61,323 nucleotides of DNA from a virus: positions 1 to 61,323 of IMG/VR virus record IMGVR_UViG_3300045051_000399; one strand, 5' to 3'. Positions 1 to 61,323 of this stretch are shown piece by piece. The stretch's first letter is position 1. Each line of letters opens with the position of its first letter. Position numbers and translations under genes: made by a program. The notes under the pieces are model-generated. The model worked only from the letters and a program-made list of their open reading frames with translations. It did not search any database and was not told where the DNA came from.

Positions 1-127
1 GCTGGCGAACGTCGTCACGACGTTGTGCGACGCGGCGCACGAATCACAGCAAGTACCGAAGCCCGACGCCGGCACCGTCGCGAAAGCGGCTTCGGCCCTG
101 GCGAGTAATTCGCTCTTCATGGCCGAG
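1..127. repeat. Terminal direct repeat (circular-contig overlap), left copy
   Basis: Bases 1-127 are identical to 61197-61323. The length of 127 is a k-mer size commonly used by assemblers, so this is most simply an assembly overlap that marks a circular or circularly permuted molecule. A true direct terminal repeat cannot be excluded from the sequence alone. The repeat lies inside the AAA ATPase gene, and the reading frame is continuous across the join. Confidence 0.9.
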
Positions 128-1063
128 CAAGTGACCGCGATGTCGATCAAGTCGAGCGGCCTCAAGATCGCAAGCGTGCGCGCCCGGACCATTCAGCAGA
201 TCAAGAGCACGCCGGGCCTCACGGTATGGGAGGGCGGCGAGACGTTCGAGGAGATCGGCGGCTCGGAGAATATCAAGCGGTTTTGCCAGCTCATCGCGAA
301 GGGCAACAACCGGCCGAACGTGATCGCGTTCATCGACGAGATCGAAAAGCAGTTCGGCGGATACGGCTCCGATAGTTCGGGCACGAGCCAGCATCAGATG
401 GCGGCGATTCTCCAAGAGATGACGGACACCGACGCGACGGGCTTCATCGAGTACGGGCAACCGGGCACCGGCAAAACGAAGCTCGCGAAAGCGCTCGCGC
501 GCGAAGTCGATACGTTCGTGCTGAAGCTCGATCTCGGCAACATGAAGCACAAGCACGTCGGCGAGAGCGAGAGCCGCACGGCCGCCGTGCTGAAGATCAT
601 CCGCGAGATCGGTCAAGGCCGCGTGCTGTGGGTAGCGACGAGCAACGGGCTCGTGAACTTGCCCGGCGAGCTAAAGTCGCGCTTCCGGCTCGGCACGTTT
701 TTCTTTGACTTGCCCGGCGCGGAGGAGCGCGAGGCGATCTGGCGCGTGCACGAGGCCCGGTACAAGCTCACGGGCGAGCAGCTCGCCGAACGGCCGGCGG
801 ATGAGGGATGGACCGGCCGCGAGATCGAGGCGTGCTGTGCGAACGCCTACGGCCTGAAGCTCACTCTTCTCGAAGCCTCGAAGTTCATCGTGCCGATCTC
901 GGTGAGCGATCACGAGCGGATCGTGCAACGCCGGCAAGAGGCGCATAACCGCTACATCTCGGCGGCGTACTCGGGTACGTATCGCTCGCCGCACAGCGTC
1001 GAGGAGGCCGAGCAAGTGCTTCGCTCGCCGGCGGCCCGCGCGTTCACGGTTCGCGAGAGCTAG
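1..1063 (+). CDS. Ycf46-like AAA ATPase with rearranged motif order (3' part; 5' part at 60679-61323)
   Basis: This is the C-terminal portion of a 526-residue protein whose start (ATG 60679) lies at the other end of the window. The frame is continuous over the 127-bp overlap. The whole protein resembles Ycf46-type AAA ATPases: a degenerate N-terminal domain, then a FEEIGG entry motif and an AAA core ending in a DLPGAEER segment. The core is out of order. The Walker B-like FIDEIEK (residues 283-289) and the following SGTSQ helix come before Walker A GQPGTGKT (325-332). Sensor 1 ATSN (385-388) and a likely arginine finger region (SRFR, about 399-402) follow at the usual end. In canonical AAA proteins Walker B lies between Walker A and sensor 1. 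The downstream DUF1257 and DUF2997 genes support a shared function. Substrate unknown. Confidence 0.85.
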   Translation, partial: LANVVTTLCDAAHESQQVPKPDAGTVAKAASALASNSLFMAEQVTAMSIKSSGLKIASVRARTIQQIKSTPGLTVWEGGETFEEIGGSENIKRFCQLIAKGNNRPNVIAFIDEIEKQFGGYGSDSSGTSQHQMAAILQEMTDTDATGFIEYGQPGTGKTKLAKALAREVDTFVLKLDLGNMKHKHVGESESRTAAVLKIIREIGQGRVLWVATSNGLVNLPGELKSRFRLGTFFFDLPGAEEREAIWRVHEARYKLTGEQLAERPADEGWTGREIEACCANAYGLKLTLLEASKFIVPISVSDHERIVQRRQEAHNRYISAAYSGTYRSPHSVEEAEQVLRSPAARAFTVRES

Positions 1064-1072
1064 GGGGCGATC

Positions 1073-1522
1073 ATGAGTCACGTTTCACTTGTGCCCGAGT
1101 GCACCATTCAACCGGATCAGCTCGACGTGTTCGCCGAGGCGTGCGTCGAGCTGGGCGCGGAGTTCATGCGCGATCAGACAAGCTTCGCGTGGTTCGGCCG
1201 ATGGGTGAACGATTACCACGGGGCCGACGCCGCATACCGCACGATCGATCCGGCGACGTTCGGCACGTGCGCGCACGCCGTACGCGTGCCCGGCGCGACG
1301 TACGAAGTCGGGCTCGTCAAGATGCCCGACGGCACGTTCCGATTGATGTACGACAATTGGAGCGGCGGCGGAGGGCTGCACGCGAAACTGGGCAAGCAGC
1401 TCTCCGGGCTCCGCCGCACGTTCGCGACGCGGTGCGCCGAGCGCCAGCTCCGACGCGAGGGCCGGCGCACGCGCCGGGAGATCGAGGCCGACGGCACGAC
1501 GACGATCGTCGTTGACTGCTAG
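1073..1522 (+). CDS. DUF1257 (Ycf35-like) family protein
   Basis: A 149-residue protein beginning MSHVSLVPECTI, the typical opening of DUF1257/Ycf35-like proteins. The N-terminal half is mixed alpha/beta and the C-terminal third is strongly basic and arginine-rich (RRTFATRCAERQLRREGRR). No catalytic motif is visible. It starts 10 bp after the ATPase gene, behind a GGGGGCG purine stretch, so translation is probably coupled. In plastids, cyanobacteria and some phages Ycf46 ATPases and Ycf35 proteins co-occur; this arrangement is the main support. Function is unknown. The C-terminal basic tail suggests nucleic-acid contact, which is inference only. Confidence 0.7.
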   Translation: MSHVSLVPECTIQPDQLDVFAEACVELGAEFMRDQTSFAWFGRWVNDYHGADAAYRTIDPATFGTCAHAVRVPGATYEVGLVKMPDGTFRLMYDNWSGGGGLHAKLGKQLSGLRRTFATRCAERQLRREGRRTRREIEADGTTTIVVDC

Positions 1523-1554: not shown

Positions 1555-1749
1555 ATGCCACAGATTCGCGTAAACATCGGGCACGACGGGAAAGTCACGA
1601 TCAAAACGAAGGGCTTCCGGGGGAAGGCGTGCTTGAAGGCGACGGCGGGCCTTGAGCGCGCGCTCGGCGGCTCGCTCGAACGCACGGCAACCTCGGAGAT
1701 GAGGCTCAGCGAGACGGCCTCAGAACGGAGCCACGATGTCGAGCAATAA
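1555..1749 (+). CDS. DUF2997 family small protein
   Basis: A 64-residue protein: a beta-rich start (QIRVNIGHDGKVTIKTKGF), then GKACLKATAGLERALGG, which matches the DUF2997 pattern of a V/I-rich strand pair followed by G-x-x-C-x-x-x-T and an E-x-x-L-G helix. It carries one cysteine. DUF2997 genes are usually found directly beside DUF1257 genes, as here. Its 3' end overlaps the next gene by 14 bp. Function unknown. Confidence 0.7.
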   Translation: MPQIRVNIGHDGKVTIKTKGFRGKACLKATAGLERALGGSLERTATSEMRLSETASERSHDVEQ

Positions 1750-2026
1750 GCTTCGCGTGCGCGTCGGCGAGGATGGCGCGCTCAGCTTCATCTATGACGA
1801 TCGGCTCGCGTGTCTCCTGGCGCTCGGGCCGTCGAGCACCACGCGCGCGAGCCACGTCGAGCCGGCCGCCGGCGACGGCGTGCGAACGGTCACGGGCGGA
1901 TGGATTGCGGACATGAGCCCGAGCGGCGGGCCGGTGCTTCGGCAGAGCAACGGCGAGCCGTTTCTCACACGTCAACACGCGCTCGACGCCGAGCGCGCGT
2001 GGCTGATCGACAACCGGAACTTGTAA
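1736..2026 (+). CDS. Hypothetical protein, probable fourth member of the AAA/DUF1257/DUF2997 operon
   Basis: A 96-residue protein with the strand-rich opening LRVRVGEDGALSFIYDD, which echoes the VNIGHDGKVTI opening of the preceding DUF2997 protein, and a C-terminal helix PFLTRQHALDAERAWL. ATG 1736 overlaps the upstream stop by 14 bp, indicating translational coupling. No known family is recognised with certainty. The gene order suggests a role with the ATPase. Confidence 0.65.
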   Translation: MSSNKLRVRVGEDGALSFIYDDRLACLLALGPSSTTRASHVEPAAGDGVRTVTGGWIADMSPSGGPVLRQSNGEPFLTRQHALDAERAWLIDNRNL

Positions 2027-5618: not shown

Positions 5619-6626
5619 GTGTCAAAGAAACGCGCCAGCAAGCCGCCGGCGAGCCCGAGCACGTCTCTCGTGCACCGGCCGCCGGCCTCGGCCGCCGACG
5701 TGCCCGTGCGCGTCGAGATCGTGACGCCAACTTCCGGCCCGGCGAGCGTCTTGCCAGATTTGAGAACGGTTGAGCCTCGCGAAGATCTGCAACCGATGGA
5801 TCCGGCGGCCGTGTACTTCGGCGGCACCGGCCTCGCCGATCATTCGTTCACAAAGCGCCAGCAATCGATCCTGCTGAAGCCCGTCGATCTCGCGGAGCTT
5901 GACGTGCTCCCGACGGGCGAGGTCTACATGAGCGCCGTGCACGTGCGCCGGCGACTGTGGGCGGCGTTCGGCGTCGGTGCGTTCGGGCAGCGGCCGCGCT
6001 CGATGCCGAAGCAACAAGGCTCGACCGTCATGCAATTGTGGGAGCTGGTGATCCTGGGGCGATCGGTCGATACGACGTGGGGCGAGGCCGAGTACCACGA
6101 GGATAACGTGCGGATGTCGTATGCGAGCGCGCTCGAAGCTGCGAAAAGCAACGCGCTCACGCGAAGCTGTAAGGTGCTCGGCGTGGGCTCCGAATGCTGG
6201 GATCGAAAGTTTTGCGCCGACTACCTCGCAACGCACGCCGTGAAAGTGCACCGGCACAAGGTGAAAGATCCGCGCTACGCGTGGCAGTGGCGACGGCTCC
6301 ACGCGCCGTCGTTCTATGACGAGGATGCCGTCGCCGAGGATATGCCGCGCGACGTGATCGCGACGTGGCACGCGAGCCGGGCCGAGCAACCGCGCGTCGA
6401 GGCGCAACCGAGCGCGGCGGATCTTGACAAGCCGCTCACCGAGCCACAGCTCGCGCGACTGTGGGGATTGATGCGCGCGCACCACGTGACGATCGAGGCG
6501 TTGCACGACTATCTCGGTAAGCACTACGCGTACACCGTGCGCGGCAAGGCGAAGCCGAGCGGCCGATTGATCAAGCGTCTGGATGCCGACGCAATCGAGG
6601 CATGGATCGCCAATGGCGGCGCGTAA
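5619..6626 (+). CDS. Rad52-like single-strand annealing protein
   Basis: A 335-residue protein from GTG 5619, chosen because GCGGAGGGA lies 8-10 bp upstream; a start at 5529 would add an unlikely basic leader. The segment around residues 157-195 (WGEAEYHEDNVRMSYASALE, then AAKSNALTRSCKVLGVGSEC) has the E-x-A-x-T/S-x-A-L-x-R-x-x-x-x-L-G pattern of Rad52-family and related phage annealing proteins. The C-terminal 65 residues (TEPQLARLWGLM...LIKRLDADAIEAWI) resemble the helical tail found in several phage annealases. The adjacent gene encodes a RecB-like nuclease, completing a two-component recombination pair. The first 60 residues are proline-rich and probably disordered. Confidence 0.65.
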   Translation: MSKKRASKPPASPSTSLVHRPPASAADVPVRVEIVTPTSGPASVLPDLRTVEPREDLQPMDPAAVYFGGTGLADHSFTKRQQSILLKPVDLAELDVLPTGEVYMSAVHVRRRLWAAFGVGAFGQRPRSMPKQQGSTVMQLWELVILGRSVDTTWGEAEYHEDNVRMSYASALEAAKSNALTRSCKVLGVGSECWDRKFCADYLATHAVKVHRHKVKDPRYAWQWRRLHAPSFYDEDAVAEDMPRDVIATWHASRAEQPRVEAQPSAADLDKPLTEPQLARLWGLMRAHHVTIEALHDYLGKHYAYTVRGKAKPSGRLIKRLDADAIEAWIANGGA

Positions 6627-7227
6627 TCGGTTCGATCCCGTCGAGCATCGGTACTTCGCCGGCGCGCGCGAGCTGATCTCGGTAACGACGCTCCTCAAAA
6701 ACGAGGGCCGGATCGACGATCGATACTTCACCGAAGAGAGCCGCGAGCGCGGCTCGTGGGTCCATGCGCGGGCGACGGAGATCGATCTCGGTTTGCCCGT
6801 GCGCGACACGGTGAAACGGTTCGACGATGCCGGCGTGTGGATCGGCGATCTCGTTGCGCCGGAAGAGTGGCGGGCGCGCCTCGACGGGTACCTCGCGTTT
6901 CGCTCGCTGGTACCGTTGTCATTCCTGACGGTCGAGGAGCCGATCTTTCGTCCCGATCTCGGGCTCGGCGGCCGGCCCGATCGTACCTTCGAGCTGCGCG
7001 GCCGCGCCGGGATCCTCGACATCAAAACCGGGCCGCGCGAGACGTGGCACGGCGTACAGATGGCGCTATACGACGTAATGCTCGGCGGCCTCCCGCCGGG
7101 CACTCGGCACCGCGCCGGCGTGTATCTCGACGAGCGCGGCGGTTTCACGTTTCATCTTTTCGACAGTCGCGAGGATGTCGTCGAGGCCTTCAACCTCGCG
7201 GCCCTCGCAAGGGAGCGTTTCGCATGA
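6613..7227 (+). CDS. RecB-like PD-(D/E)XK exonuclease
   Basis: A 204-residue protein. RGSWVH (about residues 46-51) matches the RecB-nuclease RG-x-x-H motif. GGRPDRTF (119-126) supplies the first acidic residue, ILDIKTG (134-140) the D-x-K pair, and QMALY (149-153) the Q-x-x-x-Y motif. These are the signatures of the phage/RecB exonuclease family that resects double-strand ends for annealing. ATG 6613 overlaps the annealing protein by 14 bp, and the coiled-coil gene follows directly. The size is normal for compact phage exonucleases. Confidence 0.8.
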   Translation: MAARNRFDPVEHRYFAGARELISVTTLLKNEGRIDDRYFTEESRERGSWVHARATEIDLGLPVRDTVKRFDDAGVWIGDLVAPEEWRARLDGYLAFRSLVPLSFLTVEEPIFRPDLGLGGRPDRTFELRGRAGILDIKTGPRETWHGVQMALYDVMLGGLPPGTRHRAGVYLDERGGFTFHLFDSREDVVEAFNLAALARERFA

Positions 7228-22963: not shown

Positions 22964-24652
22964 ATGGTGCCCGGCCTCACGTCGATCGTCATTCCCACGT
23001 ATAACCATGCAACACAGCTCGCCGACGCGATCGGAAGCGCCTTGCTTCAAACCGCGCCCGTTGAAGTGATCGCGATCGACGACGGCTCCACGGATCACAC
23101 GAGCGACGTGCTCCGGAAGTATCCGCAAGTGCGCGCGTTGAAGCTCCCGCACTGCGGGCCGAGCCTCGCGCGTAACGCGGGCCTCGATGCGGCGGCCGGC
23201 GAATACGTGATGTTGCTCGATGCCGACGACGTGATCGCGCCGGAGAAAGTCGCGAAGCAACGCGCCGAGCTGGAGGCCGTGCCCGAAGCGGGCTGGTGCT
23301 TGTGCGACGTGCGGATCGAGGATGCTTGCAAGGGCCGCACGATCAACGCCTCCGAACAATACGACTACGCGCGGATCGGGATCGACGGTTGGATCAAGTC
23401 GAAGCTTCAAGCCGGCCCGTTTATCCCGGTGATGTCGCCGCTCGTGCGGCGCTCGGTGATCGAAGAGCCGACGCCGATCCGGTTCGACGATCGCCTCGTG
23501 CCCGAGGATTACCACTTCTGGCTGAGCATCGCCGGCCGCGCTCGCGTGCGTTACGTGCCCGACGTGCTCGCGACGTATCGACACGGGCGCACCGGCCGAA
23601 GCCGGTTGCCGAAAACGGCCCGCGCCGTCGAGGCGAATATCGAGCTGCCGTTGCGGCTCAATCTCGGTTGCGGCGCGCCGGGCACGCGCTCCTGGCATCC
23701 GATGCGCGGCTTCGTGAATCTCGACAAGTCGATGGGCTGGCGCTTCGAGGATGGCTTGCGCGACTTCGCCGATCACTCCGTCGCCGGGATCACAATCTCG
23801 CATGCGTTGATGTATCTGCCCGAGGCCGACTGGCCGCGCTTTCTCTCCGAGTGCTCGCGCGTGCTTGCCGATCACGGCGTGCTCCGGATCACGGAGGATC
23901 ACACGGAGCATCCCGAGAGTGCGCGGCGCGGCGGCTGGCGCGGGAGCGAGCCGGCCGTCACGCTCACGACGCCGAGCTTTGTCGCCGAGCAGCTCGCGCG
24001 GGCCGGCCTCGTGGCCGAACACGTGGACGCCGAGCGCTCGACGTATCTCGATCGCTCGTTGATGCAAGCGCAACACGGCAAGCATCCCGATGTTTTTTTC
24101 ATCGAGGGCCGGAAATTGCCCGGCACGCTATTCTCGCCGCACAACGACGACGAGACGCTTTTCGCGGCGTTTACGATTCTGCGGTTTCGGCCGCGCGTCG
24201 TCGTGTGCTTCGAGAGCGTGCGCGACTACGGCGATCCGCGTGTGCGGGAAAATGAAACGCGCGAGGCAATGACGGTGCTCGGCGGCGGCGCGGTCGAGCA
24301 GTGGGCATGCCGTACCGGGATCGGTAGCGCGCACGTCGGCGAGCTGGTCGAGCAGATGCAAGCGTTCGACGCACGCGCGCATCCGATCCGAGTGTGGGCT
24401 CCGTCGCGCGAGGCATCGCATCCCGATCACGTCGCCGTTGCCGAAGCCGCCGCGCTCGTGTTCGACGGGCGCGTGCGGCACTTCCACACGTACGACGCCG
24501 GAGGCAAGGTGCGACGCGGCAAGCCCGTCGAGTACGAAGTCGAGTGGATCGAGCAAAAGCATCGGGCCTTATTGCGTTACGAGACACAAATCAAGCACGC
24601 GCGCGCTCACACGTTTTTCGCGTGGGATCTCACTGAATACGAGGAGGCGTGA
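22964..24652 (+). CDS. Three-domain fusion: GT2 glycosyltransferase, SAM methyltransferase, PIG-L/LmbE deacetylase
   Basis: A 562-residue protein. Residues 5-215: GT-A glycosyltransferase family 2, with IPTYN (10-14), DDGSTD (39-44), ARNAGLDAA (69-77) and the metal-binding DAD (86-88). Residues 225-375: class I methyltransferase with LNLGCG (232-237) and a type-11-like SHALMYLPEADWPRFLSE segment. Residues 383-560: PIG-L/LmbE-type N-acetylglucosamine deacetylase with SPHNDDE (391-397; family consensus HPDDE) and SHPDH (485-489) as zinc ligands. All key residues of each domain appear present. It lies inside the head operon beside further transferase genes, suggesting a sugar is built and then methylated and/or deacetylated. 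The acceptor could be virion protein, DNA or host glycan. Confidence 0.8.
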   Translation: MVPGLTSIVIPTYNHATQLADAIGSALLQTAPVEVIAIDDGSTDHTSDVLRKYPQVRALKLPHCGPSLARNAGLDAAAGEYVMLLDADDVIAPEKVAKQRAELEAVPEAGWCLCDVRIEDACKGRTINASEQYDYARIGIDGWIKSKLQAGPFIPVMSPLVRRSVIEEPTPIRFDDRLVPEDYHFWLSIAGRARVRYVPDVLATYRHGRTGRSRLPKTARAVEANIELPLRLNLGCGAPGTRSWHPMRGFVNLDKSMGWRFEDGLRDFADHSVAGITISHALMYLPEADWPRFLSECSRVLADHGVLRITEDHTEHPESARRGGWRGSEPAVTLTTPSFVAEQLARAGLVAEHVDAERSTYLDRSLMQAQHGKHPDVFFIEGRKLPGTLFSPHNDDETLFAAFTILRFRPRVVVCFESVRDYGDPRVRENETREAMTVLGGGAVEQWACRTGIGSAHVGELVEQMQAFDARAHPIRVWAPSREASHPDHVAVAEAAALVFDGRVRHFHTYDAGGKVRRGKPVEYEVEWIEQKHRALLRYETQIKHARAHTFFAWDLTEYEEA

Positions 24653-55201: not shown

Positions 55202-56743
55202 ATGCGCCGCGTGACGGCGGCCGATCTCTCGGTTCGCGTGACCGCGCTCCTCCTGGCGCTCGTGCTCCCGAGCTGTGGCGGCGGGCATCGGCCGCCGGTG
55301 GTGCAACCGCCGCCGTTCAACGAAGCGGCCGCGCGCGTGACGTGCGAGGGGATCTGGCGTGCCGAGCTGCAACGCGGCATCGATCCGTCGGGCCTCGCCG
55401 GTTGCCTCGCCGATCTCCGGCGCGGCGCGAGCGTCGCACAGATCACGGCGAACGTGCGGGCGAGCGAGGAGTACAAGCAATTGCACGCGCCGCCGCCGCC
55501 GGGCCGGCTCGGGCAAGTGCGCGCCGTCAATGCCGCGCTCGCCGACGACTCGGGCGGGCTCCTCGGGTATGGCACGTCGCTCTTTTGGGCGCTATGGGGC
55601 ATCGAGCACGACGCCGATCGTCTCGACAGAAACCTTGCCGACGCGCGCGCCGCCGGCTTCGAGTACGTGCGCGTGCTGGCAACCGTCGGGCCGGGCGGCT
55701 GGACGGATCGCGCCGTGGATTGGAAGTCGCCCGGCTGGGCCGTGCGCGTGGCGGCGCTCACCGATCGCGTGCGCGACAAGTACGGGATGCGCGTCGAGTG
55801 GTCGCTCCTCGGGGGCAGCGCGACGACGAAGAGCGCCGGCGATCGCGAAGCGATGGTGCGCGCGTTCATCGCGGCGATCGTGCCGCGTCAGTCGAAAGTG
55901 TGGGCGATCGAGCTGAGCAATGAGGCGAACGATCTCACGTATCCCGAGGCGAAGAGGCTTGCCGGTATTCTCCGCGCCGCCGGCTTCTCCGGACTGCTTG
56001 CGATCACGTCGCCGACGACGGACGCATGCGACGATCAGGCGGCGTGGTATGCCGGCACGCCGGCGACGTTCGCGACGATTCACTTCTCGCGCGCGACGGA
56101 TGGCGAGGGCGGCGCGTGGCGGCCGGCGCGGCAACCGTGGCGCGAGTCGCGCTTTACGTGCCCGAGCGTGCCGCATGCGTACTCGAACGATGAGCCTCGC
56201 GGCCCGCGATCGTCGGTCACGATGGAAGCCCGGCCCGAGCTGCTCGGCGCGGATGCCGTCACGACGTGGATCGCCGGCGTCTCGTCGTACACGTTTCACA
56301 CGGGCGCGGGCGTGCGCGGCGGCGGCTTCGAGGATCTCCACGGCACGAAGCCCTACATTCCGAGGCCGGCAAATCTTCGCGACGTGGAGAACTGGACGGC
56401 GACGACGAACACGATCCGCGCGTTGCGCGCGCTCCTCCCGGCCGACGTGCCGAATTGGGCGAAGGGCTCCTCGCGGCCCGCGATGTTTGATGTCGAGTTC
56501 GCGAACGTCGAGCGCGTCTATTGCGCGGCGCAAGATGCCGGGATGAAGCCGGGCAGTCGCTTCGCGTGCTCGGCGGTGCACGTGCACGGCGTCGCGAAGC
56601 TCACCGCCAAGCGCGCGATGCGCGTCGAGGTCTACAGCACTCGCGATGCCGCGAAGGTGCAGAGCGTCGATCTCCCAAGCGGCGGCGCGCTTCGCCTCGA
56701 TCCGAGCGCGCCCGGCGCGTTGCTCCTGGGGAGTTTCCAATGA
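55202..56743 (+). CDS. Lipoprotein with DUF4214-like segment and clan GH-A-like glycosidase domain
   Basis: A 513-residue protein from ATG 55202. The N-terminus has arginines, a hydrophobic stretch (VRVTALLLALVLPSC) and a lipobox-like LPSC with Cys25. Residues 44-95 (GIWRAELQRGIDPSGLAGCL ... ITANVRASEEYKQL) resemble DUF4214 helices. Residues about 118-430 look like a cellulase-type TIM barrel: ELSNEANDL places E241 after Asn as in the clan-A acid/base N-E motif, and TMEARPELLG places E342 about 100 residues later as the possible nucleophile. The C-terminal 90 residues are beta-rich. A phage-encoded lipoprotein glycosidase could degrade capsule or alter the envelope. Confidence 0.55.
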   Translation: MRRVTAADLSVRVTALLLALVLPSCGGGHRPPVVQPPPFNEAAARVTCEGIWRAELQRGIDPSGLAGCLADLRRGASVAQITANVRASEEYKQLHAPPPPGRLGQVRAVNAALADDSGGLLGYGTSLFWALWGIEHDADRLDRNLADARAAGFEYVRVLATVGPGGWTDRAVDWKSPGWAVRVAALTDRVRDKYGMRVEWSLLGGSATTKSAGDREAMVRAFIAAIVPRQSKVWAIELSNEANDLTYPEAKRLAGILRAAGFSGLLAITSPTTDACDDQAAWYAGTPATFATIHFSRATDGEGGAWRPARQPWRESRFTCPSVPHAYSNDEPRGPRSSVTMEARPELLGADAVTTWIAGVSSYTFHTGAGVRGGGFEDLHGTKPYIPRPANLRDVENWTATTNTIRALRALLPADVPNWAKGSSRPAMFDVEFANVERVYCAAQDAGMKPGSRFACSAVHVHGVAKLTAKRAMRVEVYSTRDAAKVQSVDLPSGGALRLDPSAPGALLLGSFQ

Positions 56744-57654
56744 GACGCACACTGCTCGCGCTCGCGATCCTCGTCGGGCTCGTCGCGCCGGCGGCCGCGC
56801 AAGAGTTCCCGCCGGAGCTGCCGCCGATTCAACCGTCGATCCCGCTGTTTTGGATGACGATCCCGGCTCCGGTGCTTGACTTGCCGAGCGCGCCTCCTGG
56901 CGAGCCGATCGACGTGATGTTGCTCGGGCCTTCGAATGTGTTCACGTCTCAGGCGGAGATGACGACGTATTGCGCGACGTTGCAAACGAACGCGAATAAC
57001 GTCTATGCGGCCGATCCGTTGAATCCGACGCGCGTTCGGATCGTGGCGTGTCTCTACCTCGCGAACTACGCCGCGCCGAAAAACATGAGCACCGAGCTAT
57101 CGCAGATCCAATCAAACCGACTCGGCGAATGCCCGACGTGCGTCCCGGCCGTGACGCGCGTCGTCGATGTCGCCGCACTTCGCGATCAGTACCACGCCGA
57201 TCGCGTCTCGCTCATCGACACCGGCTCTGGATCGTGCGGCCTCGGATACATGAACGCCGCGAAGTTCGGTAAGACGTGGGCGTTTTCAGTTTTTGATAAG
57301 GCGTGCGGAGCCACCAATAGCAGTGCCTGGCACGAATGGGGGCACAACGACGGCTTGTGTCACGACGACGCAAACGCGAGCGGTTGCACGCCGGCGTTTC
57401 CATACGGGTACGGATTCTGCGATAGCGCGCATGGCCGCCGATCGCCGATGGTGTATCCGAGCCCGTGCGGCGGCACACGTGTCATCTTCAGCAACAAAGA
57501 CAACACGACGACGTACGGGTACCCATTCGGCGATGCGACGCACGACGAAGCCGCCGTGCTGCGCTGGGCGATGCCGATCGAGGCGGCTTTCTATCAATCG
57601 ATCGGCTCGGTGCCGATGCCAAGGGCAACCGGCAAACCCGTTCCGACTCAATAG
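56740..57654 (+). CDS. Secreted metzincin metalloprotease
   Basis: A 304-residue protein. MRRTLLALAILVGLVAPAAA is a signal peptide with A-x-A cleavage before Q21. HEWGHNDGLCHD (198-209) matches the metzincin zinc motif H-E-x-x-H-x-x-G-x-x-H-D exactly, including the trailing Asp of adamalysin/reprolysin-like enzymes, and SPMVYPSPC (235-243) supplies the Met-turn. Eleven or more cysteines around this core suggest disulfides and extracytoplasmic maturation. RVIFSNKDNTTTYGYP also fits the adamalysin-like C-terminal region. Proteases of this type in phage genomes are rare. It starts 4 bp inside the glycosidase gene end and may process virion, envelope or competitor proteins. Confidence 0.75.
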   Translation: MRRTLLALAILVGLVAPAAAQEFPPELPPIQPSIPLFWMTIPAPVLDLPSAPPGEPIDVMLLGPSNVFTSQAEMTTYCATLQTNANNVYAADPLNPTRVRIVACLYLANYAAPKNMSTELSQIQSNRLGECPTCVPAVTRVVDVAALRDQYHADRVSLIDTGSGSCGLGYMNAAKFGKTWAFSVFDKACGATNSSAWHEWGHNDGLCHDDANASGCTPAFPYGYGFCDSAHGRRSPMVYPSPCGGTRVIFSNKDNTTTYGYPFGDATHDEAAVLRWAMPIEAAFYQSIGSVPMPRATGKPVPTQ

Positions 57655-60678: not shown

Positions 60679-61323
60679 ATGAGAAACGCACGACAGCAAG
60701 CTTTCGAGACGGTGCTCGATGCCCGTCTCGTCTCGACACCGTTCATCGCCTACAGCACGCCCGACGCACAAGCGTCTCAGGCGGGCATCTACTCGGCCAT
60801 CCTGGCGGAGTATCCACAGACCGACGACGAAGCCGGCACGAAGTACATTGAGCCGCCGGCGATTCAATGGGACGCCGTACGCGGCTTCGTGCCGCTCAAC
60901 GACACGGGCAAGGCCGCGATCGCCGGCGTCGGCGGGAGCGAAGCCAACATCAACATCGTGAGCGCACTCGACAACGCGTTGCGCCTCCCGCCGCATACGC
61001 TCCTCTTCGTGCACAACGCTCACTTGCAATGGAGCACCGGCTCGGATCGCGTCGCGATGATACAGGGCGTCTGCAACCTCCGAGAGCGCTTTAAGGCGAA
61101 GTTTCGCACGCTGATGCTCTTCCATCGTGACGCGACGCTCCCGCTCGAACTGAGCGACGTGATGACGGTCGAGGAGCCCTTGCCCGGTTCTGAGGAGCTG
61201 GCGAACGTCGTCACGACGTTGTGCGACGCGGCGCACGAATCACAGCAAGTACCGAAGCCCGACGCCGGCACCGTCGCGAAAGCGGCTTCGGCCCTGGCGA
61301 GTAATTCGCTCTTCATGGCCGAG
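60679..61323 (+). CDS. Ycf46-like AAA ATPase, 5' part (continues at 1-1063)
   Basis: The first 215 codons up to the window end. Codons 181 onward repeat the left end, so the join is unambiguous. ATG 60679 follows GAGGAGGACGCA. Residues about 95-170 form the degenerate N-terminal AAA-like domain of Ycf46 proteins: HTLLFVHNAHLQWS resembles a decayed Walker B strand, KFRTLMLFHRDATLPLELSD a sensor-like strand, and VMTVEEPLPGSEEL the ending seen before the linker in that family. No Walker A is present in this half. The promoter at 59742 should drive it as the fourth early gene. Confidence 0.8.
   Translation, partial: MRNARQQAFETVLDARLVSTPFIAYSTPDAQASQAGIYSAILAEYPQTDDEAGTKYIEPPAIQWDAVRGFVPLNDTGKAAIAGVGGSEANINIVSALDNALRLPPHTLLFVHNAHLQWSTGSDRVAMIQGVCNLRERFKAKFRTLMLFHRDATLPLELSDVMTVEEPLPGSEELANVVTTLCDAAHESQQVPKPDAGTVAKAASALASNSLFMAE
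61197..61323. repeat. Terminal direct repeat (circular-contig overlap), right copy
   Basis: Identical to bases 1-127. After removing one copy the circle is about 61,196 bp. Confidence 0.9.

Follow-up and report, generated by a model that had tools for sequence, protein, structure and literature searches.

The DNA analysed here, referred to below as the window, is the whole stretch of 61,323 nucleotides of the IMG/VR virus record IMGVR_UViG_3300045051_000399. It raises the question of whether an AAA ATPase that carries its Walker B motif ahead of its Walker A motif is a genuine protein and, if so, whether it could fold and work like other members of its superfamily. Based on sequence comparison and structure modelling, it is very probable that the protein is an internally permuted AAA ATPase with an ordinary sheet, and that it most likely acts as an active remodelling machine of the Cdc48/Ycf46 type.

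The window bears a 127-bp direct repeat at both ends, so that the record is circular, and the ATPase frame (60679-61323 plus 128-1063) spans the circular ends, giving 527 uninterrupted codons and a protein of 526 amino acids when joined. The first-pass annotation had noticed the motif order Walker B, Walker A, sensor 1 in this gene, and the positions of the three motifs proved exact to the base and contained in one open frame:

60679..61323, plus strand: ATPase gene, first part; residues 1-215, a degenerate N-terminal AAA-like domain (N profile, 2e-18); the frame continues at base 128
1..1063, plus strand: ATPase gene, second part; end of the N-terminal domain, swapped AAA core, C-terminal lid and stop; bases 1-127 duplicate the opposite end of the window
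320..421, plus strand: segment B, Walker B strand 3 and helix 3, ahead of segment A; residues 280-313 (canonical B profile, 6e-6; strand and helix in the AlphaFold2 model)
329..349, plus strand: Walker B, FIDEIEK; residue 283
452..601, plus strand: segment A, strand 1, P-loop, helix 1, strand 2 and helix 2; residues 324-373 (canonical A profile, 1e-12)
455..478, plus strand: Walker A, GQPGTGKT; residue 325
623..982, plus strand: segment C, strand 4 with sensor 1, arginine finger region, strand 5 and lid; residues 381-500 (canonical C profile, 2e-17)
635..646, plus strand: sensor 1, ATSN; residue 385

The profile values derive from four segment profiles (N, A, B and C) trained solely on canonical Ycf46-like proteins, in which A covers strand 1 and the P-loop up to helix 2, B the Walker B strand with helix 3, and C everything from sensor 1 onward. 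Read with these profiles, the window protein displays the order N-B-A-C, which bears out the earlier proposal of a segment permutation within a Ycf46-like AAA fold. The flanks, which had been described as still Ycf46-like, are indeed retained and collinear with the canonical profiles, the N segment matching at residues 61-269 (2e-18) and the C segment at 2e-17. Residues 1-215 also resemble the N-terminus of a canonical protein (L006, 4e-7), and the Pfam AAA model matches the second part of the gene (1.2e-14) in split stretches.

The exchanged order is a property of a whole family. Using the same profiles, N-B-A-C was obtained in all 89 members of the window ATPase family and N-A-B-C in 77/77 canonical homologues, meaning that the core order of the Ycf46-like classical AAA proteins (Walker A, Walker B, sensor 1) is absent from the swapped family. 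The distance from the Walker A lysine to the sensor 1 asparagine is 57-60 residues in swapped proteins vs 94-98 in canonical ones (5th to 95th percentile), evidencing that the 40-residue Walker B segment is missing from its usual place. Since this distance shrinks while the stretch between the GG motif and sensor 1 hardly differs in length (median 129 residues in swapped and 139 in canonical proteins), segment B has been moved and not duplicated. Consistent with this, a single A and a single B were found per protein wherever copies were counted, and a second Walker B between Walker A and sensor 1, which would have spoken against the permutation, is absent according to both copy counts and spacing.

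The set grew to 129 non-identical swapped proteins through a scan of genome contigs and six scans of IMG/VR, of which two were empty. In these proteins Walker A lies 41-54 residues downstream of Walker B (43 being the commonest spacing), and no odd or multi-copy protein was observed. IMG/VR scans with a single protein as query, either that of the window or that of Tunturi_3, returned no matches, and a two-sequence alignment was needed. The isolated Tunturiibacter phage Tunturi_3 (PP885686), grown in the laboratory on Tunturiibacter psychrotolerans, encodes a collinear protein (gp103) with the same order (40.6% identity over 85% of the query). The earlier impression that other phage ATPases share the arrangement was thus correct, and its view that mis-assembly is unlikely is strengthened by these independent genomes. 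The window is a metagenomic virus contig that ends inside the ATPase gene, which might suggest that the gene is broken or that its order is an artefact of assembly or rearrangement in this single contig. The chance of this is negligible, given that an isolate and 129 non-identical sequences, drawn from many contigs and metagenome-assembled genomes (MAGs), have the same order, with open frames and invariant catalytic residues.

In profile searches the swapped proteins appear as broken or partial AAA matches, which is a trap for annotation. The best-matching PHROG, phrog_8638, looks like a canonical-order phage ATPase family. Each of the 14 swapped members that were tested matches it, in split stretches where these are shown, and annotation pipelines therefore hide the permutation. 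Swapped and canonical forms both occur in phages, the latter being represented by SM1 and dozens of IMG/VR loci. As regards MAGs, one of Bryobacteraceae (G003, the genome of L094 and L095) contains four full-length swapped copies on four contigs, and one of Myxococcales (G005, the genome of L098) holds a swapped copy together with matches split in the canonical-order pattern.

The fold of the rearranged chain was approached by structure prediction and covariation. AlphaFold2, supplied with 66 family sequences, produced a confident p97-like model (pLDDT 94.2, pTM 0.89) in which the strands follow each other along the chain as 3 (Walker B), 1 (P-loop), 2, 4 (sensor 1) and 5. This model superposes on p97 D2 with VIA-align (Z 16.9, 2.5-2.7 A over about 200 residues), although the aligned count (201 residues at 2.7 A) is also expected from a sequential alignment that skips segment B and does not place it. 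Foldseek searches against the PDB gave query TM scores of 0.34-0.47 and an rmsd of about 9-21 A (above 8 A), a poor fit of the kind that a permutation is expected to cause in a sequential aligner.

An independent test of the position of segment B was therefore made by mean-field covariation, using the 129 swapped sequences (effective number about 103). The four strand pairs that are adjacent in the AAA+ sheet 5-1-4-3-2 occupied ranks 1-4 of 10 (chance 1/210), and strand 3 was coupled to strands 4 and 2 more strongly than in any of 25 row shuffles of segment B. A control on canonical proteins gave a noisier result (ranks 2, 3, 6 and 9 for the adjacent pairs), indicating that with about 100 effective sequences the method has only moderate power. 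Judging from these ranks and shuffles, the strand bearing FIDEIEK seems to lie in the usual Walker B slot, with strands 4 and 2 on either side, as the proposed permutation would require.

Covariation is blind to the difference between contacts within and between chains, and the same couplings would arise if the B segment were exchanged between ring subunits as a domain swap that provides Walker B in trans. This arrangement is highly improbable, because the monomer model is confident throughout the core and the linkers in swapped proteins span few residues (about 6-10 ahead of B, 4-10 from B to A and 7 from A to C). In the preferred reading, that of a core permuted within one chain, the flanks stay put and the chain N-B-A-C would fold into the ordinary sheet 5-1-4-3-2. 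Only three connections would change, namely those from helix 0 to strand 3, from helix 3 to strand 1 and from helix 2 to strand 4, and the segments bearing the two pore loops would remain whole.

The comparison with p97/Cdc48, a tandem D1-D2 protein, points in the same direction. In addition to the D2 superposition, the model of a full-length relative (L010, pLDDT 94.4) aligns over both D1 and D2 of p97, suggesting that the N-terminal half resembles a degenerate D1, and the family profile A4 matches a solved p97/Cdc48-like chain in both AAA domains. In both of these domains the profile segments match in exchanged order, with B, A and C of the profile mapping to the chain order A, B, C of the solved protein. 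Unlike p97, the family lacks Walker motifs in its N-terminal half and has no p97 N domain. Reordered P-loop NTPase cores that keep their active site are known from the circularly permuted GTPases YjeQ/RsgA and YlqF. These are circular permutations of a whole G domain, whereas in the ATPase described here two inner segments of an AAA core are exchanged, the N and C flanks are unmoved and no new termini of the RsgA type have been created.

An ordinary sheet would bring the two Walker motifs, sensor 1 and the arginine finger together in the customary way, and a ring of such subunits would be expected to hydrolyse ATP. The Walker A lysine, Walker B glutamate, sensor 1 asparagine and candidate arginine finger are invariant in 129/129 swapped sequences, and the Walker B aspartate is conserved in 97% of them. 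The last glycine of Walker A is less constrained, being replaced by alanine in 40% and by serine in 10% of the swapped family (e.g. L011, L014 and L017) vs 1% serine in canonical proteins, a difference that has to be read as a trend and not as a count of independent events since the swapped sequences are interrelated. It is possible that the relaxed Walker A is a structural consequence of the swap, and alanine or serine at this position could lower or alter activity.

The replacement of this glycine in about half of the family is also what might be seen if the protein had become a scaffold that binds nucleotide but does not hydrolyse it, a regulated platform for its partners in which catalysis was lost to the permutation and the relaxed Walker A. 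We regard such a loss as very unlikely, given that the invariant Walker B glutamate, sensor 1 asparagine and arginine would be needless without catalysis and that MCM helicases are active with alanine at the same Walker A position. Retention of ATPase activity by the permuted core thus remains the favoured reading.

The closest relatives of the swapped family are Ycf46/SpoVK-like AAA proteins, which include plastid and cyanobacterial Ycf46, gp026 of phage SM1, an AAA protein of IncC plasmids and proteins of Planctomycetes (L099-L102). Both groups share the N-terminal domain, the active AAA domain with its catalytic motifs, the C-terminal lid and DUF1257 and DUF2997 neighbours, and they differ in the exchanged order of A and B and in the last Walker A glycine, relaxed in about half of the swapped proteins. 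In a tree built on flank columns alone (N and C, with the swapped segments omitted) from 32 diverse swapped and 40 canonical proteins, the swapped proteins formed one clade (SH-aLRT 100) nested among canonical ones, with the canonical Planctomycetes proteins L099-L102 as sister (SH-aLRT 95). FastTree on all segments likewise placed 79/79 swapped tips together (support 0.73). The simplest reading of this single clade is one origin of the swap within the Ycf46-like family, from an ancestor that would have been a canonical protein with a degenerate N-terminal and an active C-terminal AAA domain and that exchanged its adjacent segments A and B. The likely route is that A-B was duplicated in tandem and that the first A and the second B were lost later; a duplicated A-B-A-B intermediate was not found among the swapped sequences collected.

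Downstream of the ATPase gene the window encodes four putative partners:

1073..1522, plus strand: DUF1257 (Ycf35)-like partner; 4e-26 to a DUF1257-annotated protein of locus L005, with no direct Pfam match
1555..1749, plus strand: DUF2997 partner; PF11211, 4.5e-15
1736..2026, plus strand: small conserved partner with no family assigned; 6e-18 to a gene beside the canonical ATPase of L099
2061..3047, plus strand: DUF3150-like partner; PF11348, E 0.006 (below the cut-off), and 6e-26 to a gene adjoining the canonical ATPase of L099

Among 91 swapped loci these partners were detected as follows: DUF1257 in 83, DUF2997 in 84, the small gene in 42 and DUF3150 in 87, mostly within 4 kb (local iterative profiles at E < 1e-3, for which some drift is possible). 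The canonical sisters of Planctomycetes and a Manganitrophus plasmid carry the same partner genes. In cyanobacteria DUF2997, DUF1257 (Ycf35) and a ferredoxin gene are clustered (PMC4284462), and no assigned function for the DUF1257/DUF2997/DUF3150 module of phages, plasmids and conjugative elements was found.

In the Planctomycetes locus L099 (9155-11774), and likewise in L101 and L102, the neighbours of the ATPase include a small protein with weak resemblance to ThiS, a RING-like protein rich in cysteines and a ThiF/E1-like enzyme, which together hint at a ubiquitin-like conjugation set. A link of this kind was considered for the phage family and dropped, as ThiF was detected in none of the 23 virus records with a swapped ATPase, among them the window; JAB matches occur in 4/23 of these records. 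Similarity to a defence system was also evaluated. IetA of the IetAS system has an AAA domain with weak profile similarity to the window ATPase, which scores 26.8 bits against the IetA NCBIfam model, far below its curated cut-off of 510 bits, and among the genes around the ATPase no subtilase partner (IetS) was noticed. PADLOC reported weak similarity to IetA and to other AAA proteins only.

In the window the module is followed by small genes and then by recombination genes, with a DnaC-like loader further on:

5619-6626: Mgm101-type annealing protein; PF06420, 7.6e-32
6613-7227: exonuclease, directly after the Mgm101-type gene

These two genes represent a recombination set that is found near the module in a few relatives too. 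Outside phages, the swapped ATPase of a Bryobacteraceae MAG is flanked by conjugation genes (coupling protein, CagX) and a PRTRC ThiF gene, and that of a Nitrospirales MAG lies near an integrase, a sliding clamp, a CHC2 zinc-finger protein and a coupling protein. These two loci, L092 (with L410-L411) and L090 (with L408-L409), are integrated elements with conjugation genes. A prophage origin of the MAG loci was rejected because terminase and portal matches were on other contigs, with none on the contigs of these loci, and two of the loci are conjugation-gene elements. Canonical-order copies occur on plasmids.

A role in virion assembly, like that proposed for MoxR-vWA chaperones of some viruses, has to be weighed against these settings. 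This role has been proposed for AAA chaperones with dedicated partners in jumbo phages and an Acidianus virus (PMC7824862), and the window ATPase resembles them in being a phage-encoded AAA protein with dedicated partner genes. It differs from them in belonging to another AAA clade, in having DUF1257 and DUF2997 as partners, with no vWA protein noticed next to it, and in being present on conjugative elements. The occurrence of swapped copies on conjugative elements and of canonical copies on plasmids, which have no virions, argues against assembly, and the module in the window leads toward recombination and replication genes, away from structural genes. Altogether, an assembly function seems unlikely. 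An ATP-driven machine of the Cdc48/Ycf46 type that remodels proteins together with DUF1257, DUF2997, the small protein and DUF3150 is the most likely alternative. We infer a hexamer that would hydrolyse ATP and remodel a target protein, probably in the early programme (DNA metabolism or host takeover).

The AAA superfamily and the families of the module are already known, and what appears to be new is the internal permutation of two segments within the AAA core, which was not found in the open-access literature. The search returned no permuted AAA or AAA+ core (subscription papers lay outside its coverage), and the word "ATPase" is absent from the main text of the paper describing Tunturi_3. 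We consider it probable that the swapped proteins constitute a widespread, naturally evolved AAA family that represents an undescribed topological class, in which three connections, including that from helix 3 to strand 4, are rewired with catalysis kept and in which the rewiring may be adaptive in mobile elements. Classification of P-loop NTPases relies on a fixed strand order along the chain. With more than 100 members, one origin, a canonical sister group and conserved catalytic residues, the family offers a natural test of which chain connections are needed in an AAA motor, as well as a case for how an internal segment swap passes through evolution. In classical AAA proteins the link between helix 3 and strand 4 bears the intersubunit signalling motif, and since this link is rewired here, the family could serve to test the need for it.

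Two further frames of the window deserve mention. A 562-residue frame at 22964-24652, between the terminase and portal genes, has matches to a family 2 glycosyltransferase, a methyltransferase (weak) and a PIG-L deacetylase, and the frame at 56740-57654, in the late region, displays a possible signal peptide and a weak match to reprolysin-like metallopeptidases.
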